Of a DNA stretch of 64,000 nt, positions 9,992-59,198 are shown in pieces. The stretch lies in the IMG/VR virus record IMGVR_UViG_3300025770_000004, positions 248,001-312,000 of that record; one strand, written 5' to 3'. The notes under the pieces were generated by a model. It was given only the letters and a program-made list of their open reading frames with translations, did not search any database and had not been told where the DNA came from. Position numbers and translations under genes: made by a program. Every line of letters starts with the position of its first letter. Within the stretch, counting starts at the first letter, position 1. This DNA comes from a virus.

Positions 9992-10285
9992 TTAACCAAT
10001 GTTTAGGAATTCGTATTCTTCTTGTAATTTATTATAAACTTCTTTAGATACTTCATCTGTAAGCTCAGAATGGTTTGATTCGAACCACCCAATCATCTGT
10101 TCTAATATAATGTCTTGTGCCTCACCATTACCACTTGTAGTGTAATCATCTGCCCATTCAAGCATTTCTTTTTCATAAGATTCTTTAACCTTATCAATAG
10201 TAAACTCTTCTTTTATCTTAGCTAAAACAAAATCTAAATCTTGCTCTTGTTCGTTTGACTCGTTATATTTTCTTAAATATTTCAT
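9992..10285 (-). CDS. Capsid-targeted-type small protein, 97 aa
   Basis: Starts MKYLRKYNE|SNEQEQD, the tag shared by about twenty proteins in this window and similar to the T4 capsid-targeting sequence. The remainder is acidic and helical, with no recognised domain. It follows the 330-aa tagged protein after 3 nt, in one operon with the virion proteins upstream (12438 down to 9992). I infer it is packaged in the head and processed after Glu9. Confidence 0.5.
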   Translation of the reverse strand: MKYLRKYNESNEQEQDLDFVLAKIKEEFTIDKVKESYEKEMLEWADDYTTSGNGEAQDIILEQMIGWFESNHSELTDEVSKEVYNKLQEEYEFLNIG

Positions 10286-10288
10286 ATC

Positions 10289-11281
10289 TTATTTCAATTT
10301 TATATGTATGTATAACCAAAATGATTGTGGTTTAACACTCACCAACACTTTACCACCCCATTTCTTAGAAATTACCCAAGTAGTAAAATTATTTTTAATA
10401 TTCATATACTCACCTTCATCTAATTTACCATTATCCCATTTACCGACACCATAATACCCAAAAGATATAACTCTATCATTTATAGTAGGATAAGATCTCT
10501 TTTCATGATAACCAGGGTTAAAATCTACCATATCCATTTTAATCTTACCAAGTAATAATATATCATTGTATGTTAGATTAACTAATTCCTTTTTAATGGA
10601 TTGTGCTGATTTTGATTGTTGTTGAACTAACCACTTAATACTTGAGATTGATAACTTAAATTGACCAATTGGAAGTAAATTATCATAAGATATACCATAT
10701 TCAAATTGACCATCACATTTGATACCGAAGTAAAGATTTATTTCATTCTTACTATAATCAATCTTATCAGAATACCTTAAAAGTGATTTGAATCGACTAA
10801 ATATTATTTTAACATCATTAGTATTTAAATTTTCATAATTGTAATAAATCAAGAAATCTTTTGGACAATTCTCATAATCAGGACTAGATTCTTTTCTACC
10901 GAGAGCAGTTAATGATTTAAGGAAAGATGAAAATACACCTTTACCAGCAACACTTATTTCTTGTTGTATAACCGGAGCAGGCATTAATTCCAAACTCTCA
11001 CTCAAATCTTCAATATCAGTAGATGTTAAAACTTGTGGTTCTATCTCAACAAGACCATTTTGTAAATAATCTTGTACTTGTGATTTTATATCAGATTGTT
11101 CTACCTCATCTAATAAATTAATAGCATTTGATAATTCTATATCTGAACCAATATCACCTAAATATCTATTTACGATGTTCATAACATACTCATCATCAGA
11201 TATAGATTCAATCCACTCACCTAGTGATTTAAAATCCTCTGAGCTTTCTTTTATAAATTGTATGTACTTTTTAATTATCAT
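10289..11281 (-). CDS. Capsid-targeted-type protein, 330 aa
   Basis: N-terminus MIIKKYIQFIKE|SSEDF fits the tag best of all, with a predicted cut after Glu12. Residues 1-130 are acidic and helical, ending in a Gly/Phe patch 'VAGKGVFSSFLKSLTALG'. Residues 140-330 form an unrecognised alpha/beta domain with 'LIYYNYENL', 'LYFGIKCDGQFEYGIS' and, near 280-293, 'GVGKWDNGKLDEGEY', which resembles the WxxGx repeats of the tail proteins. The start overlaps the stop of the 386-aa virion protein by 4 nt. The body could be an enzyme or effector delivered with the DNA; no catalytic signature is evident. Confidence 0.5.
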   Translation of the reverse strand: MIIKKYIQFIKESSEDFKSLGEWIESISDDEYVMNIVNRYLGDIGSDIELSNAINLLDEVEQSDIKSQVQDYLQNGLVEIEPQVLTSTDIEDLSESLELMPAPVIQQEISVAGKGVFSSFLKSLTALGRKESSPDYENCPKDFLIYYNYENLNTNDVKIIFSRFKSLLRYSDKIDYSKNEINLYFGIKCDGQFEYGISYDNLLPIGQFKLSISSIKWLVQQQSKSAQSIKKELVNLTYNDILLLGKIKMDMVDFNPGYHEKRSYPTINDRVISFGYYGVGKWDNGKLDEGEYMNIKNNFTTWVISKKWGGKVLVSVKPQSFWLYIHIKLK

Positions 11282-12438
11282 AATAATCCTGTGAATGATA
11301 TATTTACGATGTTATTTGGATCAAGTGTTCCAAAAGAATCTGTTATATTAAATCCTAATGAATATGTTCCTGATGATGTTATACCACTTATAACCAAACT
11401 TGAATAATCATATAATATGTAGTTACTACCCGTAGCTGAGAAAGTAACACCATTAGCTTCTTCAACATGGTCAACTAAAACACCAGCCATATCCAATGAA
11501 CTAACCGTACCACCATAACTAGACATAGTTAATGAAACTGTAGCCCCAAATGTAGCACCTTGTAAAGTATTAAATGGTGAAGCTGTTGATCCAGGTAAGT
11601 AAACATCGGGTGTGAAATAAACAACAGGTGTGTATATTGTGTTGTATTCTATAACAACATTATCAGCAACATTAATTGAGTTATTTAAAGAATCTGTTAT
11701 ATCAAATTTCATAGAATATGTACCAGATAATGTAAATGAACTAATTGGATTAGTATCATAATCATACAACAAATAATTACTACTAGTGGTACTCAATATC
11801 AAACCATTTGACTCAACAACATGGTCTACAATTTCAGTTCTTAAACTATCAATATCATATCCAATAAAATCATTAATACTTGATATAGTTGCACCAAAGT
11901 TGGTACCAAGTGATGTATTATAAGGTCCTAAATAAACAGCATTTTCTAATGTTACTAATGGTGTAAAATAAACAACAGGGCTATAATCAAAGAATGAATT
12001 ATCATCAATAACAGCAACCATAACATCAAGTGTTACTGGGTATTTACTATTTGGATTTGTTAAGAATAATTGTGGTATCCTATTACTTGAATTACCAGTT
12101 AATACTAATAACTGAGCCATTGAATTAACTCTAGAAACATCATCATAAAAAGACCACTCAACATAATTATCTTCTTCAATTACAGATTTAGGATCATAGG
12201 TTACTTTAATAGCTAAAAATGTTGCGTTATCTCCTAAACCTAAATGGTTTAATAAGTAATCTTTTTGACCAATTTTTAATAAAACTCTACCTTTTAATAA
12301 TTGCTTATAAGGCATTCTCAAATTAGATAGAATTAAATTCTCGGCTGTATTTGATCCCTCAATAGCAACGAATGATCCATTTGATACTTTTATATAGTTA
12401 CTACCACTACCAAATAATGATTGTCCACAAACACCCAT
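11278..12438 (-). CDS. Virion protein with two tandem Ig-like repeats
   Basis: 386 aa, Ser/Thr/Asn-rich. Residues 1-150 form an N-terminal domain. Two related segments follow at about 155-265 and 270-386, each with the landmarks 'VYFTP', 'FGATIS/FGATVS', 'VDHV.E.NG', 'SNYLLYDY/SNYILYDY' and a final 'SGTYSMKFDITDS/SGTYSLGFNITDS'. These look like Ig-like beta sandwiches, common on phage heads and tails for surface binding. The gene has a TTAATATATA box with a leader of about 21 nt and leads into the tagged genes downstream, so it is expressed with assembly genes. Confidence 0.6.
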   Translation of the reverse strand: MGVCGQSLFGSGSNYIKVSNGSFVAIEGSNTAENLILSNLRMPYKQLLKGRVLLKIGQKDYLLNHLGLGDNATFLAIKVTYDPKSVIEEDNYVEWSFYDDVSRVNSMAQLLVLTGNSSNRIPQLFLTNPNSKYPVTLDVMVAVIDDNSFFDYSPVVYFTPLVTLENAVYLGPYNTSLGTNFGATISSINDFIGYDIDSLRTEIVDHVVESNGLILSTTSSNYLLYDYDTNPISSFTLSGTYSMKFDITDSLNNSINVADNVVIEYNTIYTPVVYFTPDVYLPGSTASPFNTLQGATFGATVSLTMSSYGGTVSSLDMAGVLVDHVEEANGVTFSATGSNYILYDYSSLVISGITSSGTYSLGFNITDSFGTLDPNNIVNISFTGLL

Positions 12439-12459
12439 ATAACAATTTTTTATTTTAAT

Positions 12460-12469
12460 TATATATTAA
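12460..12469 (-). promoter_or_regulatory. TTAATATATA promoter box, leadered
   Basis: Minus-strand TTAATATATA about 21 nt before the ATG of the 386-aa virion protein. Confidence 0.55.
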
Positions 12470-12479
12470 AATTTGAAAG

Positions 12480-15824: not shown

Positions 15825-16199
15825 TTATGATAACATTTTCACAATTTCATTCATAGAATTCTCGGTTCCCTTAATAACATATTCATATAACCCAAATGCA
15901 TTTATTTCAGTAGGAGTTTCTCCAAAGAATTTAATATCATTTAAGATTTCATCAATATCATTTCTCCATTTCAAATAAAATTCATAAACATCAGAATCAT
16001 TTATAAATCCTTCTATTTTAACATCTTCTGGATTTTTGATAAAGGAATCAACAAAAGAAGAAAATTCACCTCCACTTTGTTCGATAGTTTTCTCAATCAT
16101 TGATTTAACCTCATCTTTAACATCTTCAAATTTAGATGAATCTGGTTCTGATTGAATTTCATCAGCTTCTTTTATATACTGTAAATATTTTTTAATCAT
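15825..16199 (-). CDS. Capsid-targeted-type protein, 124 aa
   Basis: Starts MIKKYLQYIKE|ADEIQSEPD, nearly the T4-type tag with a predicted cut after Glu11 (I-x-E|A). The rest is acidic and helical, with 'IEKTIEQSGGEFSSFVDSFI', and shows no known domain. A TTAATATATA box lies 4 nt before the ATG, so the mRNA is predicted leaderless. The Cys-rich mini-gene follows 3 nt after its stop. Confidence 0.55.
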   Translation of the reverse strand: MIKKYLQYIKEADEIQSEPDSSKFEDVKDEVKSMIEKTIEQSGGEFSSFVDSFIKNPEDVKIEGFINDSDVYEFYLKWRNDIDEILNDIKFFGETPTEINAFGLYEYVIKGTENSMNEIVKMLS

Positions 16200-22268: not shown

Positions 22269-24110
22269 ATGAGTAGAAGAAAACAAGATCAAAATGAAGA
22301 AGTAAAAACCGGAATAAAAGATTATGAATTTCAGAAAATATCAAGAAAGAAGAATTCATTAACAAAAGCTGAATTTAATAAGTCTAGAGTAGAATTAACA
22401 CCAAAACAACACTTATTATATAAAGGAATAAGAAACAGTATATTAACAGCCGTTCACGGCCCAGCTGGTACATCAAAGGCACAGCCACTAGATTCACCAA
22501 TACTAACACCCGATGGATGGGTAAAAATGGGTGATTTGGAAATTGGTGATAGGGTCATGTCTGTGGATGGCAACTCAACGATAGTGACCGGTGTTTTCCC
22601 ACAAGGTGAAAAGGAAATATGGGAATTAACATTTTCTGATGGATCAAAAGTGGAATGCTGTTCCGATCATTTATGGAATACACAAACTGAATCTGATAGA
22701 AATAATAGGGAATGGACAAAAACAGTAAATGGTGTTAGGAATAGGTATAAATCACCAAAAAGTGGATCCACAAAAACAACCAGTGAAATAATAGACACTC
22801 TTTATACAAATCGTGGTAGAATAAACCACACAATACCAATTACATCACCTGTAAATTTTACTGAAAGAGAATTGGAAATTGATCCATATATATTGGGTTG
22901 TTTAATAGGTGATGGTTGTTTGAGACACCATGTTGGATTTAGCACAGCGGATTCTGAAATTATCGAAAAAATAACAAACTTATTAGATGATGATATAAGT
23001 GTATCTGATAGAGGAGGTTATGACTTTGCCTTAGTTAAGGAAAAAACAACAAGGGAGAATAAATTAAAACAATATCTTAAAAAAATTGGAATATGGGGTA
23101 AATTATCATATGAAAAATTTATACCAGATTGTTATAAGTATAACAGTGTTGATAATAGAATATCTATGTTAAGAGGGTTAATGGATACAGATGGTACGGT
23201 ATCAAAAGATGGTACATACGTTAGCTTTTGCTCAACCTCAAAGGAATTAATAGAAGATGTAAAGGAATTGGTACAATCATTGGGTGGTATATCCACAGAT
23301 CAAACACCAAGAAATGAAAATTACACACACAAAGGTGTGGTGAAACAAGGAAGAACATCATATAATTTAACAATTAAAATGAATCCAGATATAAATCCTT
23401 TTTCATTAAGGAGAAAATTTGACCGAGTTATACCTAAGACTAAATACAAACCATGTAGGTATATAGTATCAGCGAGTCTTATTGGTGTTAAAGAAGCTCA
23501 ATGTATAAAAGTAGATCATCCTACACACTTATATTTAACCAATAATTATATTGTTACACACAACACATTCACAACGTGTTATACGGCATTAGCCTTACTA
23601 GCAGATAAGAAAGTAGAAAGAATAATAATAACAAAACCGGTACAAGAAAGTGGTGAAAATTTAGGATTCTTACCAGGTGATATGCAGGAAAAGTTAGACC
23701 CATATAAAAGATCATACTACAACACATTCGTAAAGATAATAGGAAGACAACAAACAGATTTTTTATTCGCATCAGAAGAAATTATATTTGAGCCACTAGC
23801 TTACATGAGAGGATCAACGTATGATAACTGTGTAATGTTATTAGATGAGTGTCAAAACGCATCTGTTAAAAAATTAATGTTGTGGGTAACTCGATTAGGC
23901 AGAGAGTCAAAAGCTGTTATGATGGGAGATACATCACAATATGATGTTAGGAAGAAAGATTCTGGATATCTAGATTTTATCGGAATGGTAACGGGTATGG
24001 ATAAATTGAATTTATTCGAGTTTAATAATAATGATATTGTTAGAAATAAGTTCTTAATTGAAATTGCTAACAGATATGATAAATATCGAGCGGATAATCC
24101 AAATATCTAA
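22269..24110 (+). CDS. phoH: PhoH-like ATPase interrupted by an intein
   Basis: 613-aa precursor, 251 aa after splicing. The N-extein ends in 'LTAVHGPAGTSK' and the C-extein resumes 'TFTTCYTALALLADKKVERI', which together restore the Walker A motif GPAGTSKT. Downstream are 'IIITKPVQESGENLGFLPGD' (PhoH signature region), 'PLAYMRGSTYDNCVMLLDEC' (Walker B with Asp-Glu) and 'MMGDTSQYDV' (GDxxQ). PhoH proteins are P-loop ATPases common in large phages and expressed during phosphate stress; the true role is unsettled, and an RNA-helicase-like function has been proposed. It lies alone on the plus strand, divergent from the tail gene. Confidence 0.9.
   Translation: MSRRKQDQNEEVKTGIKDYEFQKISRKKNSLTKAEFNKSRVELTPKQHLLYKGIRNSILTAVHGPAGTSKAQPLDSPILTPDGWVKMGDLEIGDRVMSVDGNSTIVTGVFPQGEKEIWELTFSDGSKVECCSDHLWNTQTESDRNNREWTKTVNGVRNRYKSPKSGSTKTTSEIIDTLYTNRGRINHTIPITSPVNFTERELEIDPYILGCLIGDGCLRHHVGFSTADSEIIEKITNLLDDDISVSDRGGYDFALVKEKTTRENKLKQYLKKIGIWGKLSYEKFIPDCYKYNSVDNRISMLRGLMDTDGTVSKDGTYVSFCSTSKELIEDVKELVQSLGGISTDQTPRNENYTHKGVVKQGRTSYNLTIKMNPDINPFSLRRKFDRVIPKTKYKPCRYIVSASLIGVKEAQCIKVDHPTHLYLTNNYIVTHNTFTTCYTALALLADKKVERIIITKPVQESGENLGFLPGDMQEKLDPYKRSYYNTFVKIIGRQQTDFLFASEEIIFEPLAYMRGSTYDNCVMLLDECQNASVKKLMLWVTRLGRESKAVMMGDTSQYDVRKKDSGYLDFIGMVTGMDKLNLFEFNNNDIVRNKFLIEIANRYDKYRADNPNI
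22479..23564 (+). mobile_element. Class 3-type intein with LAGLIDADG-type endonuclease in phoH
   Basis: 362-aa intein in the P-loop between Lys and Thr. It starts with Ala (AQPLDSPILTPDGWVKMGDL) rather than Cys/Ser. It has the three marks of class 3 splicing: Trp in 'SDHLW' (block B), Cys in 'QCIKVDHPTHLYL' (block F) and Thr in the terminal 'VTHN' (block G), with Thr as first C-extein residue. Endonuclease helices are 'YILGCLIGDGCL' and 'MLRGLMDTDGTV'. The class call is by motif only. Confidence 0.85.
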
Positions 24111-27656: not shown

Positions 27657-29012
27657 ATGATTAAAAAGTATTGGAAGTTCATAAGAGAGTCTATAAAAGA
27701 AGATATAGACGATGGTAAGTTCTGGAAGTTAGACGAAGATGATATACGAGAATTTCTAATAGATTTAGATGATGAGAATTATTTAACAACAGTAACATTT
27801 GGGTTTGTTAATGAAGAAGAATCATATAACTATAAAGTTAACAAAACAACCACTAGTCAAGTTTTCACAGAAAAAGTAATACCTGGTGATGATATTAGAC
27901 CAGCTTATTGGATATTAATAGAAACCGGTAGAGATACTTCTAGTGTTGATGTAACTGATTCTGTTATTTTCGCACATGATATAATTAAGGAGAAGGTTGA
28001 TGGGGAAATAACAATACATGATGAGGATGGTCGATTAGACATAAACAACATTCAATTAAAAGGTGGTTTATGGATAGGAAAGGATGAATCGAGAAACCAA
28101 AAAGGAGAAATATTTTTTAAACATTCAGAACAATTAGAAGCTAAAGAATACATAGCTTTGTTTGTTAAACAAAAAAATACTGTTGAATTAACACAGAAAC
28201 AAGTTGCTGATTATTATGGACTTGCTTATGACAAAGAAGATAAATCAGGTGGTGTTTATATACACGTTGATTTGGAAGACATGGCTGATTGTCTATTAAA
28301 TAGAAATGATGATTATAAAGATACACTAGTTGGTGGTACTGAGAATATGTGGGATCATTATGAGTCACATTATTATATACCAGACACACAATCATTTTTC
28401 CAATATACATTAGATAAAGAAAATGAAGTTTTAATGGTTAAGTCAATTATTAAAGAATATGGTGGATTTCAAGAAGTATTAGATAATTTTGATTGGCCAC
28501 ATATGTCAAATGGATTTGAAAATATATCATCAGAAGATGAGCTTATTGAATTTTTACTAAAGGAAAGATTTTATAGGTCGATAGATGAATTATCAAAGGA
28601 TATAGAAATATCACAAGAAGCTAAACAGATAGCAGCCGATTGGGAAATGGGAGCACACGTTGATGAGACATATAACAGTATATTAAGTTCCTTTGATTAT
28701 AAGGTTGATGAAGAATTTGACTATCAAAAAGTTGATATAGATACTTGGGTTAAATCAAAACATAATTCATCAGGTTACACACAAAGTATAACTTATTATG
28801 AAGTTGAATTTGATTCTAAATGGATGGATGACTTTGATTCAGATGATTTATTCAGAGAATCATCAATAAGAAATTTATGGGATGAATGGTGTGGACAACA
28901 ATGGTTTAATGAAACTTTAAATCCTAGAATACCAGATTATGGAAGTGCGGATAGTAAAGGTATAAATTCAGATATAAAACATCTATTAGATAATTATCTT
29001 AAAGACCACTAA
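27657..29012 (+). CDS. Capsid-targeted-type protein, 451 aa
   Basis: N-terminus MIKKYWKFIRE|SIKEDIDD is one of the clearest tags, with a predicted cut after Glu11 (I-x-E|S). The body is acidic and contains several Trp/Tyr-rich segments ('ENMWDHYESHYYIPDTQSFF', 'IRNLWDEWCGQQWFNETL') but no family I know. The size and lack of repeats suggest a folded enzyme or effector carried in the head. Predicted leaderless. The last 14 nt overlap the convergent Nudix gene. Confidence 0.5.
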   Translation: MIKKYWKFIRESIKEDIDDGKFWKLDEDDIREFLIDLDDENYLTTVTFGFVNEEESYNYKVNKTTTSQVFTEKVIPGDDIRPAYWILIETGRDTSSVDVTDSVIFAHDIIKEKVDGEITIHDEDGRLDINNIQLKGGLWIGKDESRNQKGEIFFKHSEQLEAKEYIALFVKQKNTVELTQKQVADYYGLAYDKEDKSGGVYIHVDLEDMADCLLNRNDDYKDTLVGGTENMWDHYESHYYIPDTQSFFQYTLDKENEVLMVKSIIKEYGGFQEVLDNFDWPHMSNGFENISSEDELIEFLLKERFYRSIDELSKDIEISQEAKQIAADWEMGAHVDETYNSILSSFDYKVDEEFDYQKVDIDTWVKSKHNSSGYTQSITYYEVEFDSKWMDDFDSDDLFRESSIRNLWDEWCGQQWFNETLNPRIPDYGSADSKGINSDIKHLLDNYLKDH

Positions 29013-32316: not shown

Positions 32317-32796
32317 TTAGTTCATATGTCTAACATCTTTATGTGGCTTCTTCTTTTGACCAGAATGACTCCAGAACCTAGCAAATGGTGTGGTAAAGAA
32401 TTCATTATAAGATATAGTATCATCCAAGTGTAAAGTTATACCATTATCTCTACAATAATTAGCTTTAACCACATCCCAATCTTCATTACGAAACTTACTT
32501 TGTATAGTTCCATCAGGAAATTCAATCTCACCAGTAACTAAAGAATCACCTTTAACAAGAAAATCATAAACAGAAAAAACGTGTGTGTATTTAATACCAT
32601 AAGAATCGATTTCTGATTTCATTTCATCAGTCCAAGATCCACCAGTAATTATATGCACTTCACCTCCATTTTTTACAAAAGCATCTGTCATGAATGCAAA
32701 AAACTCCGGCATGGCATCTATAACACCATGAACATCGATACCCAATTTAATTTTGGATGAATTACTTTCGTTTATCATTTCACTAAATTTATTCAT
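32317..32796 (-). CDS. HAD-like phosphatase with capsid-targeting-type N-terminus
   Basis: 159 aa. MNKFSEMINE|SNSSK fits the tag with a predicted cut after Glu10 (I-x-E|S), and the HAD core starts immediately after: motif I 'LGIDVHGVID' (Asp-x-His variant), motif II 'VHIITGGS', and an acidic 'LHLDDTISY' as motif IV. Asp at the second motif I position is replaced by His, as in some 5'-nucleotidase-like members, so catalysis may be altered. It may be packaged and act on nucleotides or protein phosphates right after injection. Predicted leaderless. Confidence 0.65.
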   Translation of the reverse strand: MNKFSEMINESNSSKIKLGIDVHGVIDAMPEFFAFMTDAFVKNGGEVHIITGGSWTDEMKSEIDSYGIKYTHVFSVYDFLVKGDSLVTGEIEFPDGTIQSKFRNEDWDVVKANYCRDNGITLHLDDTISYNEFFTTPFARFWSHSGQKKKPHKDVRHMN

Positions 32797-35582: not shown

Positions 35583-35660
35583 TTATTTAATGAAAATTAA
35601 TTGTATTGTTTTTGAAAAACGTTGACGTAATGATTCGTTATATTTCTTTAAATATTTCAT
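35583..35660 (-). CDS. Stand-alone capsid-targeting peptide, 25 aa
   Basis: The ATG overlaps the preceding stop by 4 nt (ATGA), and the peptide reads MKYLKKYNE|SLRQRFSKTI followed by QLIFIK. It is a complete tag with only 15 further residues. It is either the remains of a tagged gene whose body was deleted or a peptide packaged as such. Seen in sequence; function unknown. Confidence 0.45.
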   Translation of the reverse strand: MKYLKKYNESLRQRFSKTIQLIFIK

Positions 35661-36391
35661 CCTTCAAATGATTTTAAGGAATCTTTTAACTCATCGTGAT
35701 AAATATTATACTTATTAGTATTCTTATGATAAGTAGCTACGTGATGTAATTCTTCATTTGGTGGGAAAACACCAATATTTATGTTATCATCATCGTCCAT
35801 GGTATCATAAACATCATCAAAATCTATATCATGTGTTTTATAAAAATCTCTTAACTTTTTCATCATTTTTCGGTATTCATCTCCAATAGATGTGTCCCAT
35901 CTCTGATAATAATCTTTAAGCTTATCACTAATATCCTCACCAAGGAAGTGTATATAAAATGTTGTATGAGAAGCATCACCAGAACTGTTTTTACTTGAAA
36001 TAGGCTCAACTAGAACTTTATTATGGTTTAATTCTAATTCACCAGACCTATCAATCATCTCCTGAATAGACATTCTAACTACGGATAAATCATCAACAAT
36101 ACCAGAAAACTCATCGAATGTGTGATCAGGCTTTTGTTTAAAAACAATAAGTATCATATACTTTATCTTATACTCTACACCATCTGTAAATTCTTTTACG
36201 AATAACCCCTTTGGATCACTTATCATTTTATGAACACTCACACTACAATTACTCATATCAATAACCTCTCTAAGACTATCAGTGAAAAAATCATCAGATA
36301 ATGCGTTATCTGATAAAAAATCAGAATACTCATTAGATCTAGAAAAAGATTCGTTTATAATTTGGAAATTATCCCACTTCTTTATTCTCAT
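35657..36391 (-). CDS. Capsid-targeted-type protein, 244 aa
   Basis: N-terminus MRIKKWDNFQIINE|SFSRSNE, a longer form of the tag with a predicted cut after Glu14 (I-x-E|S). The body is acidic with 'VYDTMDDDDNINIGVFPPNE' and a likely alpha/beta fold; no known domain. The ATG overlaps the methyltransferase stop by 4 nt, and the 25-aa peptide follows with another ATGA overlap. Confidence 0.5.
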   Translation of the reverse strand: MRIKKWDNFQIINESFSRSNEYSDFLSDNALSDDFFTDSLREVIDMSNCSVSVHKMISDPKGLFVKEFTDGVEYKIKYMILIVFKQKPDHTFDEFSGIVDDLSVVRMSIQEMIDRSGELELNHNKVLVEPISSKNSSGDASHTTFYIHFLGEDISDKLKDYYQRWDTSIGDEYRKMMKKLRDFYKTHDIDFDDVYDTMDDDDNINIGVFPPNEELHHVATYHKNTNKYNIYHDELKDSLKSFEG

Positions 36392-37224
36392 CTCTTGAAA
36401 TTCTTATTTTGTATGATCATTTTAGTATGTGTTGAGTGTGTTAAGTGAACATTGAAATCTTTTTTCACTTGCCTTTTTAAGAAATCTAAAAGAAAATCTT
36501 GCTCATAAACAATTTTATAACTACTTGGTATCTTAGTCTTAACAGTTTCTAATGAAACAGGTAAGTAATCTTCATTTACCTCTCTCTCCCAATTATCGGT
36601 ATATCTATACTTTAATAAGTAATGTATAAATACTTTATAATTATCATTTATATCACCCCATCTTTCCTCAAAAGATTTTAAATAGAATTTATCACATTTA
36701 TTTCTAACTTTCTTAACATCATCTTTGAACATATTTATTTCTTCTCTACCAATCTCAAGTGATGGTATCATATCTCTTATAGTTATCCATTTAAAATAAC
36801 CACCAAAAACTTGTTCTTCCCAAAATTTCTTAATAACATTACCTAATGAATATGAATAAACTTCATGTATAACAGAACTAAGGTTTAATAATGGGTTCTT
36901 AGAATGTAATATCATACTAGTAGCTTCATCCCAATCACTTGTTAGAAAAGCTCTATTACCTAATCTAGTTCTAGCTTTTGATAACATTGTCTCGTCTAAA
37001 TCATATCCTATTATTTTAACATTTGGATTTGATTTCATTATACTTTCTAAAAAAGTACCATCACCGCACCCAAAATCAACAATAGTATCAAAATTAAGCT
37101 TATCAACAAAGAAAAGCTTATCTTGCATAGATAAACTCATACCATCAATATAAGATTGTAAATCATATATTGGCTTTTCACCAACAAGTTCTTCTAAAAA
37201 TAGTTCCCAATTAAGAATATTCAT
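36388..37224 (-). CDS. SAM-dependent methyltransferase with tag-like N-terminus
   Basis: 278 aa. SAM-binding motif I 'IVDFGCGDGTFLES' at about 49-62, the acidic end of strand 2 in 'IIGYDLDETMLSKA', and a post-loop 'AFLTSDWDEA' identify a class I methyltransferase. The N-terminus MNILNWELFLEE|LVGEKP resembles the capsid-targeting tag (L-x-E), though less strictly. The target is unknown; similar proteins act on small molecules or rRNA. If packaged it could modify a host molecule immediately after entry. Predicted leaderless, leading an operon with the 244-aa tagged protein. Confidence 0.7.
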   Translation of the reverse strand: MNILNWELFLEELVGEKPIYDLQSYIDGMSLSMQDKLFFVDKLNFDTIVDFGCGDGTFLESIMKSNPNVKIIGYDLDETMLSKARTRLGNRAFLTSDWDEATSMILHSKNPLLNLSSVIHEVYSYSLGNVIKKFWEEQVFGGYFKWITIRDMIPSLEIGREEINMFKDDVKKVRNKCDKFYLKSFEERWGDINDNYKVFIHYLLKYRYTDNWEREVNEDYLPVSLETVKTKIPSSYKIVYEQDFLLDFLKRQVKKDFNVHLTHSTHTKMIIQNKNFKR

Positions 37225-46115: not shown

Positions 46116-46670
46116 TTACTTATTAAATTTTAACTTATAAAGTGTTTTGTATATCAAACAAACAATATCATCAATTATACTATGTAAATGAGTATCTTCT
46201 TCTGATATACATTTTTTAGCATGTTTTATATATTCACCCAATTCTTCAAAATAAGCAACTGGTTCCTTTGATTTAGTTTCACTAGTGTCAATAACATCAT
46301 AGTTTTCTATTATACCATACTGACCTTGATAAACCTCGATAACATCATCAACCATACCAAGAACTTCTTCATAATAAGATCCAAGTGCCATATGTTTAGC
46401 ATAAGAACCTTCATCACCTCTAACTTGTAAATGATAAACGTGTGCCATTTCTCTACTTTCAAATAACTTAGAAAAGAAAGTAGAAACATCATTAGATTCT
46501 GTTGTACCAACTATCTCATCATCATTTTTTTCTTGTGGTACGATTACATTACCAGGTAGATTAGCAGTAACAGATCCATCTCCACTAATTGGTTGCAAAT
46601 CTACCGTTTCTTCTACCTCATTTATTGCTTTAACTGGCCTTTTACCACCAAAATCTGAAAACTTTCTCAT
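46116..46670 (-). CDS. Tag-like protein with helical DUF5856-type domain, 184 aa
   Basis: MRKFSDFGGKRPVKAINE|VEE: a long tag variant with a possible cut at I-x-E. Residues 60-184 are helical: 'STFFSKLFESREMAHVYHLQ', 'SYAKHMALGSYYEEVLGMVD', 'HLHSIIDDIVCLIYKTLYKL'. The spacing of Glu and His (ESREMAHVYH; HLHSIIDD) resembles a ferritin/Dps-like bundle, known to me from uncharacterised phage proteins (DUF5856). Metal binding is an inference. Confidence 0.5.
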   Translation of the reverse strand: MRKFSDFGGKRPVKAINEVEETVDLQPISGDGSVTANLPGNVIVPQEKNDDEIVGTTESNDVSTFFSKLFESREMAHVYHLQVRGDEGSYAKHMALGSYYEEVLGMVDDVIEVYQGQYGIIENYDVIDTSETKSKEPVAYFEELGEYIKHAKKCISEEDTHLHSIIDDIVCLIYKTLYKLKFNK

Positions 46671-47212: not shown

Positions 47213-47482
47213 ATGAGATTTTTAAAAAAATTCGAAAAATTTAATGAAGAGTTCGTAATGGGTGGACAGGAAGTGGAAACTAAACCAGCACCAACAACAA
47301 CTCCAGATGTTAAACCAGGAACAAGACCTAGTAGACCATCACCAATAAGGAGAGATAAACCATCGGTTAATCCTAATCCTAAAATGGAACTTCCAACATC
47401 TAGTGTTGAAGACGTTGTTAATAAATTCGTGAGTCTCCTTAATGATAAGGGTGAAGACATAAAAAAATATGTCAATAAATAA
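47213..47482 (+). CDS. Tagged Pro-rich protein, 89 aa
   Basis: MRFLKKFEKFNE|EFVMGGQ, then a Pro/Thr/Arg-rich flexible stretch (residues 22-60) and a short C-terminal helix 'VEDVVNKFVSLLNDKGEDIK'. Looks like a head-internal or core peptide. The stop shares its last base with the next ATG (TAATG). Confidence 0.5.
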   Translation: MRFLKKFEKFNEEFVMGGQEVETKPAPTTTPDVKPGTRPSRPSPIRRDKPSVNPNPKMELPTSSVEDVVNKFVSLLNDKGEDIKKYVNK

Positions 47483-48996
47483 TGAAGAATTTTAACGACT
47501 TTATGAATGAAGAAGTTTCTCTTAAAGGTAACTCAGGTATACCTGGAGAAGGGGCTGATAAAGATGAAAAGAAATATTTAAGTGATGTTGAGCGTAGAGC
47601 TCGTCAAAGAATAGGTGTACCCAATGAGGAAAACCCTAGATTTGGACCTCCAAGACAAACAATGCAAGTAGGTAGAGAGATGATGGAAGTCATGGGACAA
47701 TCTATGAGGTTTGTTAGAGGTAATGAAGATGCTTTAGAAGAATTAGCAGAAAGAATAATAATGCAAGAATATGCGTCTATATTAGATAATGTAGATTTAG
47801 ATATTAAGATTGTTAGGCCAGGTGATGTTAAGGCTTTTATGGATGAAGAGTGTGAAGATTGTGAACCACCATCTATGCAATTATTAGAAGATCCCGAAAT
47901 TAAAAAAGAGGTTGATAAAAGAAAGGTTATAAACAATATTACACAAGGTGAAGCTAAAAACACCAAAAGAATTTTAGCAATGCCAGAAGTTAAAACTGAA
48001 TTACAAGCTATTCTTGGTCAAGGACCAGGTGAAGAAGCTCACACACTATGGATGAGATTAACAGAATTAGCTGATAAAATGGATTGGTTAATACCAGTTG
48101 ATGTTAAAGGTGATATGATGGAACAAGCACCAGAAGGAGCGGCAGGAGCATGTTCAGTAAAATGGCCAGAAGCAAAAGAAGAAGAAGATTTATCAAAGAA
48201 AATATTAAAGAATCTTGAAGAAGATGACGCTGATATAGATAACGAAGATGAGGATATACAAGAATTGTTATCAAGTGGTAACCCAATTATAAAAGCAAGA
48301 GGTGTAGATTTCCCAATGTTATTACATGAAACTGTTAAAGGTATTTATGAATTAATAGCAGCGGCTGGTATACCAGAAGATAAAAGAACTGCTGGATTAG
48401 TTATGTCAAATACATCTACAATGGATGATGAAGCAGAAGAGTTCAGATATGGACCAGAATTAGCATCAGATATAAGAGATTTTGTTAATGAAGCTCCGGA
48501 TGTTGATAAGTATCCAAATATAAGAGAACACTTCTATGGTGTGTTACACGCTTTACCAGTAGATGAGTTCTTACCATTGGTTAAGAAAATTCTTTTAAGT
48601 ACCCCAGAAGCTAGAACAAAGGTTGATGAGATGGTAGAAGAAATAATCAAATCAATAGATGAGTATGAATTAGGCGAAGCTTTACCTAATTCTGATTATA
48701 ACGAACCAGAAGAAGATGGAGATACAATTGAACCTAGTAAAGAAAAAGATATTTCATTTGAGGATGAGATGAAACAAAAAACAATTGAAAGAGAATCAGA
48801 TTACTCTCAATTAAGTAAAAAAGAGATTCAAGATTTAATTGATGATGCTCTTGATGCGGCTATAAAGAAAGGTGATGGAGACTTTTCTAAAGTAAAAGAG
48901 CTAAGTGAATTCTTAGGAGAAGGAAAGGAAATTTATCTTAGAGAAATAGAAAGAATAAACGAGGGTCATAGTCACCACGATAGAAAACAAAAATAA
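47482..48996 (+). CDS. Tagged acidic protein, 504 aa
   Basis: MKNFNDFMNE|EVSLKGNSG. Very acidic and mostly helical, with a CEDCEPP motif near residue 133 and 'GACSVKWPEA' near 222; a Glu/Asp-rich loop at 235-255 and another before the C-terminal helix bundle. High charge and helicity fit an internal or core head protein; no enzyme motif. Second gene of the 47213-50931 operon. The next gene follows after 6 nt. Confidence 0.55.
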   Translation: MKNFNDFMNEEVSLKGNSGIPGEGADKDEKKYLSDVERRARQRIGVPNEENPRFGPPRQTMQVGREMMEVMGQSMRFVRGNEDALEELAERIIMQEYASILDNVDLDIKIVRPGDVKAFMDEECEDCEPPSMQLLEDPEIKKEVDKRKVINNITQGEAKNTKRILAMPEVKTELQAILGQGPGEEAHTLWMRLTELADKMDWLIPVDVKGDMMEQAPEGAAGACSVKWPEAKEEEDLSKKILKNLEEDDADIDNEDEDIQELLSSGNPIIKARGVDFPMLLHETVKGIYELIAAAGIPEDKRTAGLVMSNTSTMDDEAEEFRYGPELASDIRDFVNEAPDVDKYPNIREHFYGVLHALPVDEFLPLVKKILLSTPEARTKVDEMVEEIIKSIDEYELGEALPNSDYNEPEEDGDTIEPSKEKDISFEDEMKQKTIERESDYSQLSKKEIQDLIDDALDAAIKKGDGDFSKVKELSEFLGEGKEIYLREIERINEGHSHHDRKQK

Positions 48997-49002: not shown

Positions 49003-50931
49003 ATGAAACTACATAAATATAATCAGTTTTTGGATCAAAAGCCAATAAACGAAGATCTAAATAAATCTAAGAAATTCTTGAAGGAGAGACACCTTTTAAT
49101 AAAAGCGGCTGAAGAAATGGGGTTGATCAAAGGTGAATTAGAACAACAATTGAAACATGGTGAGAAAAAATCACTAACACTAAATGATTTCACTGATGAA
49201 CAAGCAAAGGAACTTAGATATATGATGAGAGGTATGAAAATCTCGGATGAAGAAATACAACAGATTGAAAGAGATCCTGAATTTTTGGAGTTAAGAGAAG
49301 AACTCAAAGATAATATTGGTTATTTATATAACTTCACTTATATGTATTATGTAGAAATGGTTACATTAGAAGAAATAAAGTCTATGTATAATAGATTATT
49401 AGAATACAAAAATTTATTAAACCAATTACCAAAAAAGTTCAATGTAGGTTTTATAGACACTAAAATAGATAATAATAGTGAGATTCTAGTAGATGGTCTT
49501 GACCAATTAGAAGATTATAGAAAAGTTAAGAAGATTGTAGATAAACTGACTAGTGAACTTAAAAAGGATTATAAAAAAGCGGCCGAAGGACAAAAAGAAA
49601 AATTCTCATCAATTGCCACAGCATTTAACGAGATGGGTAAAAAGGAAGACGGAACAATAGATGAAGAAAAGAGAGATGGTTTATGGAAATCATTCTTTGG
49701 TGAAGTAAGAGTAATTGAAGGAGTTAAAAGATATGTTGGTCAATTAAAACGTTACAAAACCATTGGTGAGTTTAACAGAGCGGCAGAAAACTTCTTAAAA
49801 GCATCAGAAAATTCAGATATATTAGCTTTTTATGATAAAATAAATGATTGTAATGAGAAATTTGGATTTGCCGGGGCTGATATAGTATTTGATGAGAATG
49901 GAATTCTTATAATAGAAGTTAAATCATTCCCAGCGAATCAAATGTTAAATGGACATACTAGACACTGTATTAAAGATTATAACAGTCAATGGGAAAATTA
50001 TGTATCAAATCATAATAACAAACAATATTACGTTTATAACTTCAATATACCACAACATGATAATATGTCAGTAGTTGGTGTAACAATCGAACCAGGTCAA
50101 AGAGTAAGAGCAGCACACGCTAAGAATGATTCAAGTGTTGGAAGTGGGTTTAAAAGAACAATGGATAATTGGCAAAAAGAATATGCAATAAAAGATAATC
50201 TTTGGGATCAATTAAAACCAATGACACAAGAAGAAGTTGATAGGAGAGAAAGAGCTAAAGTAGCCGAAAGAAGGATTATCGAGAAAGGATTATCAATTGA
50301 AGATATTGTTAAATTTGTAAAAGAAGATGGTGCTAATATTAATAAGAATAATGGTGTGTGTTTGTCAAACGCTGTTGAAGAAGATGATATCGAAAAGGCT
50401 AAAGTTATACTTCAATTAGGAGCATCTCCTAACTTAAAGAAAGGAGCTGATGCTCCAATTTCAAAAGCTAAGAACTTAGAGATGATTAAGCTACTTGTTA
50501 GTAATGGCTCTGATATAACAGGAGATGTATTCAATAATATATTACACGATATGGATGCTTTAGAATATTGTTTAAAAGCTGGATTAGATCCTAACTTCAA
50601 TAACTTTTTACCATTCAGAAGAGTTTGTAAAGGTAGTTGGAAAACAAGAGATGATATCGGAGAAAGTTATTTAGGAGCATTTAAGTTATTACTTAAATAC
50701 GGAGCTAAATTATCTGATGATAGAGGTAGAAATATGATTATCAAATGGGCATCTGAATACTCTAGACTTGATATATTAGATTTCTTATCAGAAGAAAATC
50801 TTTCACAGAAGTTCACAGCGAAAGAATGGGAGGAAGCAATAACTTGGATAAGCCATTCAAGAAAAACTAATGATGATATAAAAACTGGAATATTTGATTA
50901 CTTAAATAATGAGATAAGTAAAAAATCATAA
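49003..50931 (+). CDS. Tagged protein with ankyrin repeats, 642 aa
   Basis: Tag-like start MKLHKYNQFLDQKPINE|D. Residues 20-250 are helical. Residues 285-395 form a domain with 'GADIVFDENGILIIEVKSFP', 'HTRHCIKDYNSQWENYV' and 'MSVVGVTIEPGQRVRAAHAK', recalling PcfJ-like 'HCV..Y' proteins. Residues about 440-620 carry ankyrin-type repeats: 'DIEKAKVILQLGASPNLKKG', 'NLEMIKLLVSNGSDITGDVF', 'ALEYCLKAGLDPNFNN', 'AFKLLLKYGAKLSDDRG'. Ankyrins mediate protein binding and are unusual in phage virions. I infer a head-packaged effector. A terminator follows. Confidence 0.6.
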   Translation: MKLHKYNQFLDQKPINEDLNKSKKFLKERHLLIKAAEEMGLIKGELEQQLKHGEKKSLTLNDFTDEQAKELRYMMRGMKISDEEIQQIERDPEFLELREELKDNIGYLYNFTYMYYVEMVTLEEIKSMYNRLLEYKNLLNQLPKKFNVGFIDTKIDNNSEILVDGLDQLEDYRKVKKIVDKLTSELKKDYKKAAEGQKEKFSSIATAFNEMGKKEDGTIDEEKRDGLWKSFFGEVRVIEGVKRYVGQLKRYKTIGEFNRAAENFLKASENSDILAFYDKINDCNEKFGFAGADIVFDENGILIIEVKSFPANQMLNGHTRHCIKDYNSQWENYVSNHNNKQYYVYNFNIPQHDNMSVVGVTIEPGQRVRAAHAKNDSSVGSGFKRTMDNWQKEYAIKDNLWDQLKPMTQEEVDRRERAKVAERRIIEKGLSIEDIVKFVKEDGANINKNNGVCLSNAVEEDDIEKAKVILQLGASPNLKKGADAPISKAKNLEMIKLLVSNGSDITGDVFNNILHDMDALEYCLKAGLDPNFNNFLPFRRVCKGSWKTRDDIGESYLGAFKLLLKYGAKLSDDRGRNMIIKWASEYSRLDILDFLSEENLSQKFTAKEWEEAITWISHSRKTNDDIKTGIFDYLNNEISKKS

Positions 50932-51707: not shown

Positions 51708-52124
51708 TTAGTTTGGGTTACCATCATTATCATATCTCTCCGGTATAAACTGTGGTTTATGACCAATTTCAGTGATAACCAACTCATAATAAGCATCAGT
51801 AGATCCAAAATCACTATAAAATACCTTTAACCCGAATCCACTTAGTTGTGAATGAACATCATATATTAAATCGTGTATCTTTGGCTCTATATGATATAAT
51901 GTTGGCATATCATTTGGAAAATCTATGGTTTTATCAAAAAGTTGTATAATAAATGATTTATCATCATTTTTAATGATGCCTGATTGTAATGGATTCTCTA
52001 CTGAAAATCCTAACTCCGGAAACTCATCAGTTATGTATAACATAATATCACTTATATCATTATAAGTCATACCTTTATCACCATAAACACTTTCTTTTAG
52101 AAACTCGTTATACTTTTTCAACAT
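51708..52124 (-). CDS. Capsid-targeted-type protein, 138 aa
   Basis: MLKKYNEFLKE|SVYGDKG is nearly superimposable on the T4 tag with L-x-E|S. The body is a small alpha/beta domain ('DISDIMLYITDEFPELGFSV', 'SQLSGFGLKVFYSDFG') of unknown function. Predicted leaderless. Confidence 0.55.
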   Translation of the reverse strand: MLKKYNEFLKESVYGDKGMTYNDISDIMLYITDEFPELGFSVENPLQSGIIKNDDKSFIIQLFDKTIDFPNDMPTLYHIEPKIHDLIYDVHSQLSGFGLKVFYSDFGSTDAYYELVITEIGHKPQFIPERYDNDGNPN

Positions 52125-56923: not shown

Positions 56924-57364
56924 TTAAGGTCTAAAAGCCCACTTTTTCAATACTTCAAAAACCTCACCCATACCAAAAGAGTAACTAGAAGAATATTCTA
57001 AAAATTCTTCCTTAGTCATACCTTTAGCAATCTCATCATGAATATCTATTTCTAATTTATTGATTTCATCATCCGACCATTGAAAATTCTCACTAACTAA
57101 ATCTCCAGTTGGTTCTTCTTCAACAGTACCAGGTATTTCTAAATATTGATCTAAAATACCTTTAGTAGTCATATCATCTTCCCAATACCAAGCTTCTCCA
57201 TCAAGTAATGCAACTTTATCATCAGAAATTAATTTTTGTAAAGATGTGTTATCTGTAAATGCGTTAACATCCTCATCAGTTAAATTTACCTTAACAGAAC
57301 CCGGTATATTTTCACCTGGTTTCTCTGCTTTACTTTCGTTAAATTGACTCCACTTTTTAATCAT
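56924..57364 (-). CDS. Capsid-targeted-type protein, 146 aa
   Basis: MIKKWSQFNE|SKAEKPGEN carries the tag with a predicted cut after Glu10. Acidic body with 'YWEDDMTTKGILDQYLEIPG' and C-terminal 'SFGMGEVFEVLKKWAFRP'. Last of six consecutive tagged genes (59198 down to 56924) that appear to be one operon. Confidence 0.5.
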   Translation of the reverse strand: MIKKWSQFNESKAEKPGENIPGSVKVNLTDEDVNAFTDNTSLQKLISDDKVALLDGEAWYWEDDMTTKGILDQYLEIPGTVEEEPTGDLVSENFQWSDDEINKLEIDIHDEIAKGMTKEEFLEYSSSYSFGMGEVFEVLKKWAFRP

Positions 57365-57370: not shown

Positions 57371-57862
57371 TTATTTATTTTTATCAAAATCATTTATCAT
57401 ATCCAAAACTTCCTTAAAAGCTTTTTTTCTACCAGATTTATAAGCATTTACTGTACCACCATCAGAGACACCTTTGTAGGCATCATCAAAATCCCATAAT
57501 TCATAATTTACTTTCTTATTTAGACCTTCTTTAACTTTCAAATTTAAAATATGTAATATTGTTTCTTTATCTAATTCTGCTGATAGATTCTCATCAATTT
57601 TATTACTCTCAAGTAAACCTCTTAATTCATTTACTAAATATCCAGGATCTTCATCATACTTCCCACCACTCCAATCATCTAACAATCCTTGAAGTTCAGG
57701 AACATTACTAACTGTCTTCATTTTATTCACAGGTTTAGACGCTTCTTCAATGTCTTGTTTATCTACTCCCGCCGCTGGAAATGATTGCATCTCCTGAAAG
57801 AAGTTCAATAAACTATAATCACTATTTGATTCATTAACGAATTGTTTCCACTTTTTAATCAT
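57371..57862 (-). CDS. Capsid-targeted-type protein, 163 aa
   Basis: MIKKWKQFVNE|SNSDYSLLN is a clear tag (V-x-E|S). The rest is helical with 'FQEMQSFPAAGVDKQDIEEA', no known domain. Start overlaps the preceding gene's stop by 8 nt. Confidence 0.5.
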   Translation of the reverse strand: MIKKWKQFVNESNSDYSLLNFFQEMQSFPAAGVDKQDIEEASKPVNKMKTVSNVPELQGLLDDWSGGKYDEDPGYLVNELRGLLESNKIDENLSAELDKETILHILNLKVKEGLNKKVNYELWDFDDAYKGVSDGGTVNAYKSGRKKAFKEVLDMINDFDKNK

Positions 57863-58262
57863 AATTTCTTAATAATTTTTTTAACATATCAGTTGGCTCA
57901 TCATCAAAATAAATTGATTCTATATAACCTACTCTATAATCATCAATACCATCATACTCACCATCGGCACCAGTTATTAAATTCAACAATTGTTGACTTT
58001 TACTACCTACATATTCTTCGTCCAAAGAAGCACCTGTCTCATTTTTAAATGCTTCTGGTGATTCATATTCTTTCCATTCTCCTGATTTTGATTTTTCAAA
58101 TACCTTACCCTCTGTTGTTACAAGTATAATACCTGTACCAGATAATAAATCTTCTAAGAATACCGGAACATTAATACCATTTTCAAATATTTCTTTCAAA
58201 TCATTGATAGTATCTAATCCCTCACTCTCTAATTCTTCGTTAAATTTTCTTAAATATTTCAT
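57855..58262 (-). CDS. Capsid-targeted-type protein, 135 aa
   Basis: MKYLRKFNE|ELESEGLDT. Acidic; contains 'VPVFLEDLLSGTGIILVTTE' and 'SQQLLNLITGADGEYDGID'. Unknown fold. Coupled to the next gene by an 8-nt overlap. Confidence 0.5.
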   Translation of the reverse strand: MKYLRKFNEELESEGLDTINDLKEIFENGINVPVFLEDLLSGTGIILVTTEGKVFEKSKSGEWKEYESPEAFKNETGASLDEEYVGSKSQQLLNLITGADGEYDGIDDYRVGYIESIYFDDEPTDMLKKLLRNYD

Positions 58263-58270
58263 AATTATAA

Positions 58271-58555
58271 TTATCTTTTTCCTGTTCTGTATTCTTCGAT
58301 GATAGTATCAACATCCCTACGTACCTTCTTCCTACTAACACCATATAATATTGATAATGTATCTTCACAACCTGACTGACCATCATAACTAGGATTCATA
58401 GATCCATCCATATAATCACCGTATATCTGATCTGCTATATATTTACACATTTTTTCTAAAGCTTCTTCGTAACTAGGACACTTAGATTTAGGTGGATCAA
58501 AATCATCATCACTTCTACCTATAACACCCTCATTAAATTTTATTAAATGTTTCAT
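58271..58555 (-). CDS. Capsid-targeted-type protein, 94 aa
   Basis: MKHLIKFNE|GVIGRSDDD. Small helical body with 'CPSYEEALEKMCKYIADQIY' and a basic C-terminus 'VSRKKVRRDVDTIIEEY'. Its own promoter box lies 5 nt before the ATG. Confidence 0.5.
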   Translation of the reverse strand: MKHLIKFNEGVIGRSDDDFDPPKSKCPSYEEALEKMCKYIADQIYGDYMDGSMNPSYDGQSGCEDTLSILYGVSRKKVRRDVDTIIEEYRTGKR

Positions 58556-58560
58556 TATTC

Positions 58561-58570
58561 TATATATTAA
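58561..58570 (-). promoter_or_regulatory. TTAATATATA promoter box, 5 nt before ATG
   Basis: Minus-strand box then GAATA and the ATG of the 94-aa tagged gene. Confidence 0.55.
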
Positions 58571-58575
58571 TTTTA

Positions 58576-58899
58576 TTATTTGAATTTATGTGGGAATATG
58601 TGTCTTAGTTCATGACCCTTTGGTATATCAGAAGCTCTCATACCCATAATCTTTTTCTCAGGACAAGTATCTTTACCATCCATTAGGTAATTATTATTAC
58701 AAGCCCATACTTCAATAGTTCTATTAAATAGTTGACCTACTTGAAAAGGGAATCTAATATTTGGTAATTTTTCGATTCTTGTTATTTTACCATCAGGAGT
58801 TTTAAACACAGAAAAAACCATATGTCTATTTCTCTTATTAGTAAAAACTACCTCTCTTTCTGGTAAATTTCCCTCATTAAATGTTTTCAAATGTTTCAT
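58576..58899 (-). CDS. Capsid-targeted-type protein, 107 aa
   Basis: MKHLKTFNE|GNLPEREVV. Body is beta-rich with 'MVFSVFKTPDGKITRIEKLP' and 'VWACNNNYLMDGKDTCPEKK', Cys-containing and basic, unlike the acidic bodies of most tagged proteins. Function unknown. Its first base overlaps the stop of the 99-aa gene. Confidence 0.5.
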   Translation of the reverse strand: MKHLKTFNEGNLPEREVVFTNKRNRHMVFSVFKTPDGKITRIEKLPNIRFPFQVGQLFNRTIEVWACNNNYLMDGKDTCPEKKIMGMRASDIPKGHELRHIFPHKFK

Positions 58900-59198
58900 T
58901 ATTTTAAATATGACATATCTTCTTTTGTTAAGGCCGAGAATAAATCTACTATTTTACCTTTGATTCCACCTAAATCACCTCTGATATCTTCTATCATATC
59001 AATCAATTCTTGTGGTAATTCATTTTCATTAACATTTAACTCAGCCATCATATTATTAAACTCACCCACACCATATTTACTCGATCCTAAAGAATCATGT
59101 ATATCACCAAATTCTCCGTGTTGATCTATATATCCATTGTAATCAACATACTCACCAGAATTCTCATCCCAAGCTTCATTAAATTTTTTAATAGCCAT
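58899..59198 (-). CDS. Capsid-targeted-type protein, 99 aa
   Basis: MAIKKFNE|AWDENSGEY; short tag with cut predicted after Glu8. Acidic body 'DIHDSLGSSKYGVGEFNNMM'. First gene of the six-gene tagged cluster, behind a leadered TTAATATATA box. Confidence 0.5.
   Translation of the reverse strand: MAIKKFNEAWDENSGEYVDYNGYIDQHGEFGDIHDSLGSSKYGVGEFNNMMAELNVNENELPQELIDMIEDIRGDLGGIKGKIVDLFSALTKEDMSYLK

Follow-up and report, generated by a model that had tools for sequence, protein, structure and literature searches.

Why proteins with little else in common should begin with the same few residues is the question raised by a 64,000-nucleotide stretch of viral DNA, here called the window, which comprises bases 248001-312000 of the 312,709-bp virus record IMGVR_UViG_3300025770_000004 (G000) and has a G+C content of 30%. 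A first-pass annotation had seen in it about twenty unrelated proteins with an N-terminus like that of the T4 internal proteins, and all seven N-termini that it quoted were found where it had placed them. We consider it very likely that these shared N-termini, the tags, are T4-type capsid-targeting sequences, that is, head-targeting signals. The enrichment of the tags, their conservation, a protease in related phages, and the small residue that follows the tag glutamate all support that reading.

G000 probably represents around half of the genome of a megaphage. A window protein of 1905 amino acids (aa) is 73% identical to its counterpart in LR745206 (W01, 635 kb) and 56% identical to that in LR756502 (W02, 642 kb); LR756504 (W03, 636 kb), LR756501 (W05, 735 kb), and LR756500 (W06, 462 kb) are remoter relatives. 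In T4 IPIII, residues 4 and 7 serve targeting and residues 8 and 10 serve processing, and the protease gp21 cuts after L/I-x-E (PMC9026906). Our class A tag is a core, [YFW]xx[FY][ILVM]xE near the N-terminus, whose positions were taken from knowledge of T4, while class B (MK[YH]LKxFNE-like) and class C (MKYLxLFE-like) are looser than class A. The three classes were substituted for a loose first regular expression, which was dropped because it gave too many chance matches in T4 and elsewhere.

Class A was found in 7 of the 78 open reading frames (ORFs) of the window, compared with a mean of 0.14 and a maximum of 2 in 200 within-gene shuffles and with 1 of 277 internal Met positions. Classes A, B, and C together were found in 12 of the 78; here 300 shuffles gave 0.24 on average and never more than 3, and 1 of 277 internal Met positions matched. 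Inspection by eye added the genes at 32317, 35657, 49003, and 58899, as well as weak cases at 25115 and 46116, the former of which was dropped as its W02 match lacks the E. Thus, the tag set is real, but the good cases number about 15 to 16, slightly below the twenty first proposed. The tagged proteins of the window follow, each found by regular expression unless said to be by eye.

9992..10285, minus strand: 97-aa protein, class B tag MKYLRKYNE followed by S; its closest W01 and W02 matches carry tags too, with bodies 78% and 35% identical.
10289..11281, minus strand: 330-aa protein, class A tag MIIKKYIQFIKE followed by S; 8 of 8 family members tagged.
15825..16199, minus strand: 124-aa protein, class A tag MIKKYLQYIKE followed by A; tags also present on the best W01 and W02 matches.
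27657..29012, plus strand: 451-aa protein, class A tag MIKKYWKFIRE followed by S; in W01 the matching protein shows, by eye, MRLKKYLEFIKES at an internal Met; no match in a PDB sequence search.
32317..32796, minus strand: HAD-like enzyme by eye (GIDVHGVID), tag MNKFSEMINE followed by S, by eye; phrog_13623, of unknown function, and no Pfam match to back the HAD-like reading.
35657..36391, minus strand: 244-aa protein, tag MRIKKWDNFQIINE followed by S, a displaced site, by eye; the T4 IPI N-terminus appears similarly displaced.
36388..37224, minus strand: methyltransferase (Pfam Methyltransf_12), tag MNILNWELFLEE followed by L, doubtful because E is followed by L in the window and by F in W01.
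46116..46670, minus strand: DUF5856 protein (Pfam E 5.8e-17), weak candidate tag MRKFSDFGGKRPVKAINE followed by V, by eye.
47482..48996, plus strand: 504-aa protein, class A tag MKNFNDFMNE followed by E; no Pfam or PHROG match.
49003..50931, plus strand: 642-aa ankyrin-like protein, tag MKLHKYNQFLDQKPINE followed by D, a displaced site, by eye; Ank_2 at E 1.9e-5, under the curated cutoff.
51708..52124, minus strand: 138-aa protein, class A tag MLKKYNEFLKE followed by S.
56924..57364, minus strand: 146-aa protein, class B tag MIKKWSQFNE followed by S; the W02 match has the class A tag MIKKWNQFINES.
57371..57862, minus strand: 163-aa protein, class A tag MIKKWKQFVNE followed by S.
57855..58262, minus strand: 135-aa protein, class B tag MKYLRKFNE followed by E.
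58271..58555, minus strand: 94-aa protein, class B tag MKHLIKFNE followed by G.
58576..58899, minus strand: 107-aa protein, class B tag MKHLKTFNE followed by G.
58899..59198, minus strand: 99-aa protein, tag MAIKKFNE followed by A, by eye.

Six 20-kb stretches of G000 outside the window gave matches in 10 of 179 ORFs, so that the window, with 12 of 78, is richer in tags than those stretches. The motif search that the first-pass annotation had proposed, over the genome and its relatives, was run on sampled stretches: with any class counted, 22 of 257 ORFs matched in G000 (184 kb), 20 of 277 in W01 (186 kb), 17 of 176 in W02, 5 of 238 in W03, 9 of 183 in W05, and 10 of 142 in W06. The same search gave 0 of 90 in pT24, 0 of 78 in KVP40, and 4 of 257 in T4, where the four were IPII, IPIII, gene 61.1, and gene 56, the last of which looks like chance. 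Extrapolation from these samples gives about 50 to 70 tagged proteins per 635-kb genome.

S, A, G, or N follows the glutamate in 25 of 37 tags of class A (p 1.4e-8) and 18 of 27 of class B (p 2.1e-6), compared with a proteome background of 0.234 and with only 10 of 64 core matches internal to proteins. The preference held when one member was taken per body family (21/31 for class A and 16/21 for class B). A small residue at this place fits cleavage there. The T4 rule of L/I-x-E, to which the first-pass annotation had appealed, is followed by class A, but class B has F or Y where the rule calls for L or I.

A gp21-type protease gene had been expected outside the window, and while no match was found in the 313-kb G000 fragment, one was found in all three of the roughly 640-kb relatives searched. 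The profile phrog_207 (T4 gp21) gave one match each in W01, W02, and W03, with E values of 1e-29 to 1e-35; it was used in place of Pfam PF03420 (gp21), which matched nothing anywhere, controls included. In all three, a gp23-type capsid gene (phrog_138) lies 1 to 3 kb after the protease gene. The protease protein is about 700 aa long and consists of the protease, a long repeat region, and then acidic and C-terminal parts, and we refer to it as the protease-scaffold fusion. By eye, HP and SSR motifs are common to the fusion protease and T4, and these may hold the catalytic His and Ser of the gp21 (S77) protease. W06 also has a second, partial gp21-type protease match at 154858-155151.

The repeat unit of the fusion is 14 residues, YSEY[IL]AE-NLDKNI, and contains the tag core. 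Each fusion in W01, W02, and W03 has 11 core matches, one standing alone and, after a gap of 28 or 42, ten in tandem at 14-residue spacing; shuffles of the fusion proteins predict 0.14 to 0.20 (maximum, 3 in 2000 shuffles). Among 222,404 aa, T4 included, there were 112 core matches, of which 33 fell in the three fusion proteins, and the next-best protein had 2. Copies were also counted in relatives: in the best 80 of 300 IMG/VR relatives, 56 had 11 copies, 16 had 10, 6 had 12, and 2 had 4, while the protease-scaffold of W05 has 14 core matches and that of W06 only 2. Of five protease-bearing IMG/VR contigs, four have class B tags. The repeat's YSEYIAE differs from the YQEFIAE of T4 IPIII at two of seven positions, and matches to five of these seven IPIII residues (4-10) were found in 13 of 2,152 scaffold 7-mers, 3 of 15,240 N-terminal ones, and 4 of 240,281 internal ones, one of the four internal matches being a miscalled N-terminus (L001 13900). 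The fusion protein repeatedly shows L/I-N-E or L/I-A-E with S, N, A, G, or K as the next residue, and to judge from these sites it may cleave itself as T4 gp21 cuts gp22. In the capsid protein, INE followed by N was considered as the equivalent of the T4 gp23 cut, but alignment puts the gp23 cut elsewhere and the site is only a candidate. A homolog of the protease-scaffold on a 4.5-kb contig of a Psychroflexus metagenome-assembled genome, the sole relative among 149 pattern matches in a bacterial genome collection, fits the Bacteroidetes host prediction for phages of >634 kb (PMC7162821).

Whether tag, protease, and repeat go together was asked across phages, with protease presence judged by phrog_207 except in XacN1, for which annotation was used. 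In four AT-rich phages with no phrog_207 match, tags of any class were found in 0 of 142 ORFs of SPbeta, 0 of 93 of crAss001, 1 of 177 of phage G, and 0 of 135 of phage K, and the tag is thus rare (1/547) in these four phages without that protease, in line with the first-pass reading. Class A alone was found in 0 of these 547 and in 37 of 1273 ORFs of six Mahaphage-type samples. Where the protease occurs without the repeat, class A was again rare: Lak-C1 2/146 (read in code 15; code 11 gave 0/200), pT24 0/200, KVP40 0/201, XacN1 0/122, and PA5oct 1/185, a total of 3/854, all three in ORFs of 52 to 57 aa. A separate repeat scaffold was not seen in sampled stretches of KVP40, XacN1, PA5oct, pT24, and Lak-C1, with no more than 1 core match per open frame (code 11). 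The difference between repeat-scaffold phages (37/1273) and protease-without-repeat phages (3/854) has a p of 5e-6 in a grouping that counts as repeat phages both G000 (scaffold unseen) and W06 (degenerate-looking repeats); excluding these two gives 22/874 versus 3/854 (p 1.4e-4).

How the tags might work is suggested by the repeat. During head assembly, a tagged protein would be drawn into the prohead by a tag that imitates one 14-residue scaffold repeat, with the tag's key aromatic residues at the positions of the repeat's two tyrosines; the class B tag would be the same signal, one residue shorter. The protease half would then cut both scaffold and tags after the glutamate and free the cargo, which would remain with the DNA and enter the host alongside it. 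Binding to the repeat, packaging, cleavage, and injection are each inferred. We lean toward the view that the tags act by imitating the scaffold repeat and somewhat favor injection of the cargo and an early action for it, and as a whole, the explanation by targeting, repeat imitation, cleavage, and entry with DNA seems to us probable.

Several points weigh against this explanation. Classes B and C were drawn up post hoc, after the data had been inspected, and when internal Met positions (22/3,656) serve as the reference, the enrichment of class A is only about 5-fold. The window's own fragment has no phrog_207 match, so its own scaffold is unseen. An AlphaFold model of the scaffold makes residues 235-449 one helix, at low confidence (mean predicted local distance difference test score [pLDDT], 49). 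T4 gp22 has no core match, yet T4 uses the tag, and a review, in the passages available, limits the T4 targeting sequence to IPII and IPIII (PMC9958956). The T4 late promoter TATAAATA, tried as an upstream element, was not enriched before tagged genes (3/59 versus 23/591). W03 has 11 repeats but class A tags in only 3 of 238 ORFs, a number reached by 4 of 300 shuffles, and despite its repeats it has no match to the class B DNA pattern. Conversely, W06 has class A tags in 7 of 142 ORFs but 2 core matches in its protease-scaffold, and when W06 is moved to the no-repeat side, class A becomes 30/1131 versus 10/996 (p 0.006); W06 slightly lowers our confidence in scaffold imitation. Finally, all repeat-scaffold phages may share descent, which would confound the covariation.

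Some of these observations lend weight to an alternative in which the tags, although they direct proteins to the head and undergo cleavage, bind a different component of the core or shell, as may happen in T4, their likeness to the repeat reflecting only a shared protease site and helical packing. T4 tags still work with a gp22 that lacks the repeat, W06 has many tags for its 2 scaffold core matches, and core localization in T4 is said to "remain mysterious" (PMC9958956). The repeats, however, also keep the upstream aromatic pair Y-x-x-Y/F, positions that in T4 serve targeting and not cutting (PMC9026906), and the occurrence of class A tags goes with that of the repeat, more weakly once W06 is regrouped. 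We consider binding to another component possible but unlikely.

Could the N-termini instead have another job, such as a membrane or replication-compartment address or a translation start feature of late genes? The start region does have a regulatory link: among ORFs that are 60 aa or longer, TTAATATATA is found in the 40 nt preceding 20 of the 59 tagged and 54 of the 591 untagged ones (p 1e-6, a post hoc value because TTAATATATA was chosen after k-mer counting). Its distance to the start codon is about 14 or 30 nt, as at window positions 51708, 15825, and 39337. Moreover, it precedes a portal gene inferred from its position (W01 L025 3127 and W02 L031 4545) and a gene downstream of the capsid gene in both W01 and W02. 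Its presence before tagged, putative portal, and post-capsid genes suggests that these genes share a promoter, probably a late one, and makes TTAATATATA a candidate late promoter for the clade. Another job, however, leaves the small residue after the glutamate and the scaffold copies unexplained. Codons also vary while the peptide holds, and the displaced-site forms keep INE (by eye). A DNA pattern for class B had 8 matches in G000, 21 in W01, and 11 in W02, and 2, 7, 8, 0, and 9 in five IMG/VR contigs, but none in W03, W05 to W11, or T4, and the reversed control pattern had none in all 17 records. The class B matches listed use many different synonymous codons; the class B tag is conserved as a peptide. 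An N-terminus with another job is therefore improbable, and capsid targeting remains the reading that we prefer.

The tags could in principle be what remains of common descent, with diverged duplicates retaining only their first residues. Some neighbors do look like paralogs, and 62 tagged proteins from the G000, W01, W02, and W03 stretches form 51 body families rather than 62. Three adjacent class B proteins at L019 13575-16008 of G000 are paralog-like by eye (MRYLRKYNEEL... once and MKYLKRFNEEL... twice). The 12 window bodies, however, with their first 16 residues removed, gave no mutual BLASTP match at E 1e-4 and form 12 families, in agreement with the original description of the proteins as unrelated. 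Tagged bodies include unrelated folds (RNA ligase, PNK phosphatase, PPK2, LRR, NUDIX, and methyltransferase). The HAD-like protein at 32317 has the tag in G000, W01, and W02, but its W03 homolog starts directly at the enzyme domain, untagged, and its KVP40 homolog has a different, untagged N-terminus; the homologs without it indicate that the tag is an add-on. Common descent is thus very unlikely. Chance is negligible as an explanation even in a 30% G+C window, where proteins often start MKK... and the loose first expression gave many chance matches, since shuffled N-termini and the four AT-rich control phages give almost none.

In the W01 and W02 stretches, every best match of a tagged window gene keeps the tag, with the exception of that of 25115, the case dropped. 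The matches are tagged for 9992, 10289, 15825, 36388, and 56924 by regular expression and for 27657 and 32317 by eye, and 49003 has a weak match (22%) whose N-terminus, MKYISRFHLNENV, likewise looks like a tag by eye. In the 10289 family, Y..FI.E is kept in 8 of 8 members (window, W01, W02, and five IMG/VR contigs). The five contigs came from an alignment query with two search patterns, one of them the tag itself, but their N-termini all fail the tag pattern and so were reached via the other. Single-protein IMG/VR searches with 10289, 27657, and 32317 found no relatives. In an AlphaFold model of 10289, model residues 1-13 (protein 2-14) have a pLDDT of <50, which leaves the tag outside the fold, and a fold search with the model gave no PDB match at E <= 0.001. 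Finally, 56924 is class B while its W02 match is class A (48% identity over 66 aa), a pair that argues that both forms are one signal.

What the tags carry is mostly without a known domain. Outside the window there were 71 tagged ORFs, of which 61 were 110 aa or longer. A Pfam scan of these 61 (E <= 1e-4) gave 19 families, with one member each, and about 50 of the 61 had no match. Individual scans of 48 of the 61 traced all families except the methyltransferase ones to ten proteins. The tagged proteins with a Pfam assignment include the following.

G000 L020 12705: T4 Rnl1-type RNA ligase, tag MKKLSKYLEFINE followed by S.
W01 L026 10824: SMODS-associated NUDIX protein, tag MILDFLSFINE followed by S.
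W05 L125 12222: PPK2.
W03 L035 13145: 2'-5' RNA ligase/Acb1-like protein, the weakest case because K follows its E and W03 tags are near chance level.
W06 L137 13382 and 17088: an LRR protein and a PNK 3'-phosphatase, respectively.
W01, W06, W02, and W01: HTH_45, DUF2201, DUF6576, and NUDIX (class C), respectively.

An NFACT-R protein just after the W01 capsid gene (L025 12508) is also tagged, MIKKYKLFKE followed by G (by eye). Of the enzymes and the ankyrin protein to which the first-pass annotation had pointed in the window, the methyltransferase (Methyltransf_12) has a doubtful tag, the HAD-like assignment was made by eye, and Ank_2 falls under the curated cutoff. T4 loads IPI against GmrSD (PMC9958956 and PMC3012670), and enzymes for RNA repair and against the cyclic-oligonucleotide-based antiphage signaling system (CBASS) would likewise suit preloading for use before phage gene expression. 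At little better than an even chance, the capsid address code copies the scaffold, one N-terminal copy turns a protein into head cargo, and each Mahaphage-type virion is preloaded with several dozen proteins, including RNA-repair and perhaps anti-CBASS-like enzymes that act before expression.

The signal is of a known kind, on a new scale, with a new, testable clue to its mechanism. T4 IPI, IPII, IPIII, and Alt also have a short N-terminal propeptide with an aromatic residue at 4, F at 7, I or L at 8, and E at 10, borne by unrelated bodies and served by a gp21-type protease; the tag expression finds IPII and IPIII but misses IPI. T4 has a handful of such proteins, whereas G000 and W01 have 22 of 257 and 20 of 277 sampled ORFs and the shortened class B as well. 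In both T4 and the relatives, a phrog_207 protease precedes a gp23-type capsid gene, but the relatives fuse protease and scaffold with tandem 14-residue repeats, whereas T4 gp22 lacks the core. Phages phiKZ, 201phi2-1, and SPN3US likewise cut many head proteins after glutamate and eject them, but with an S/A-x-E motif and a diverged protease, and no short aromatic tag is reported in the passages available (PMC9026906). In P1, which we liken by description only, an N-terminal stretch directs the antirestriction defense protein DarB into the head, but it is the one cargo known in the passages available, and 30 residues suffice (PMC9024508).

In the openly available papers searched, mostly as passages, no account was found of a targeting-repeat scaffold or of megaphage tags. 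The terms internal protein, injected, prohead, and protease have no occurrence in PMC7162821, on huge phages, nor do protease and scaffold in PMC9723777, on a marine megaphage. The mechanisms by which T4 tags locate the core of the head "remain mysterious" according to the review cited above (PMC9958956), and a scaffold that repeats the tag's seven-residue motif offers a direct, testable answer. The tag is also a sequence rule that may allow the proteins injected by uncultured giant phages to be predicted from DNA alone; many of these would lack known domains, and some would serve RNA repair or counterdefense. It further provides a possible tag set for loading cargo into phage heads. We note that T4 gene 61.1 (L004 18966-19130) starts MKTFKEFIKE followed by D, the full capsid-targeting core, and judged by that start could be an unlisted T4 internal protein; a literature search by name gave no paper bearing that name among the best 8 of 13 matches listed.

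Beside the tagged genes, the window has one protein that may reach the head by a second route.

9468..9959, minus strand: 163-aa protein similar to the N-terminal part (propeptide and arm) of the major capsid protein in the relatives (phrog_138, E 0.0017, residues 5-78).

It has a lysine-rich C-terminus and matches in W01 and W02, and it was aligned with the capsid proteins of W01 to W03. Possibly, it is a head-targeted DNA-binding protein or an assembly decoy. At the other end of the tagged region, a TROVE (Ro60-like) protein (59264-60715, minus strand; Pfam E 2.4e-18) adjoins the tagged gene cluster; no Y-RNA was found in the window (Rfam, gathering thresholds). Intein or homing-endonuclease domains lie inside a DnaJ-domain protein (3776-5551, minus strand) and a PhoH-like protein (22269-24110, plus strand), and the window has a single tRNA gene, for tRNA-Cys(gca), at 30309-30380 on the minus strand.

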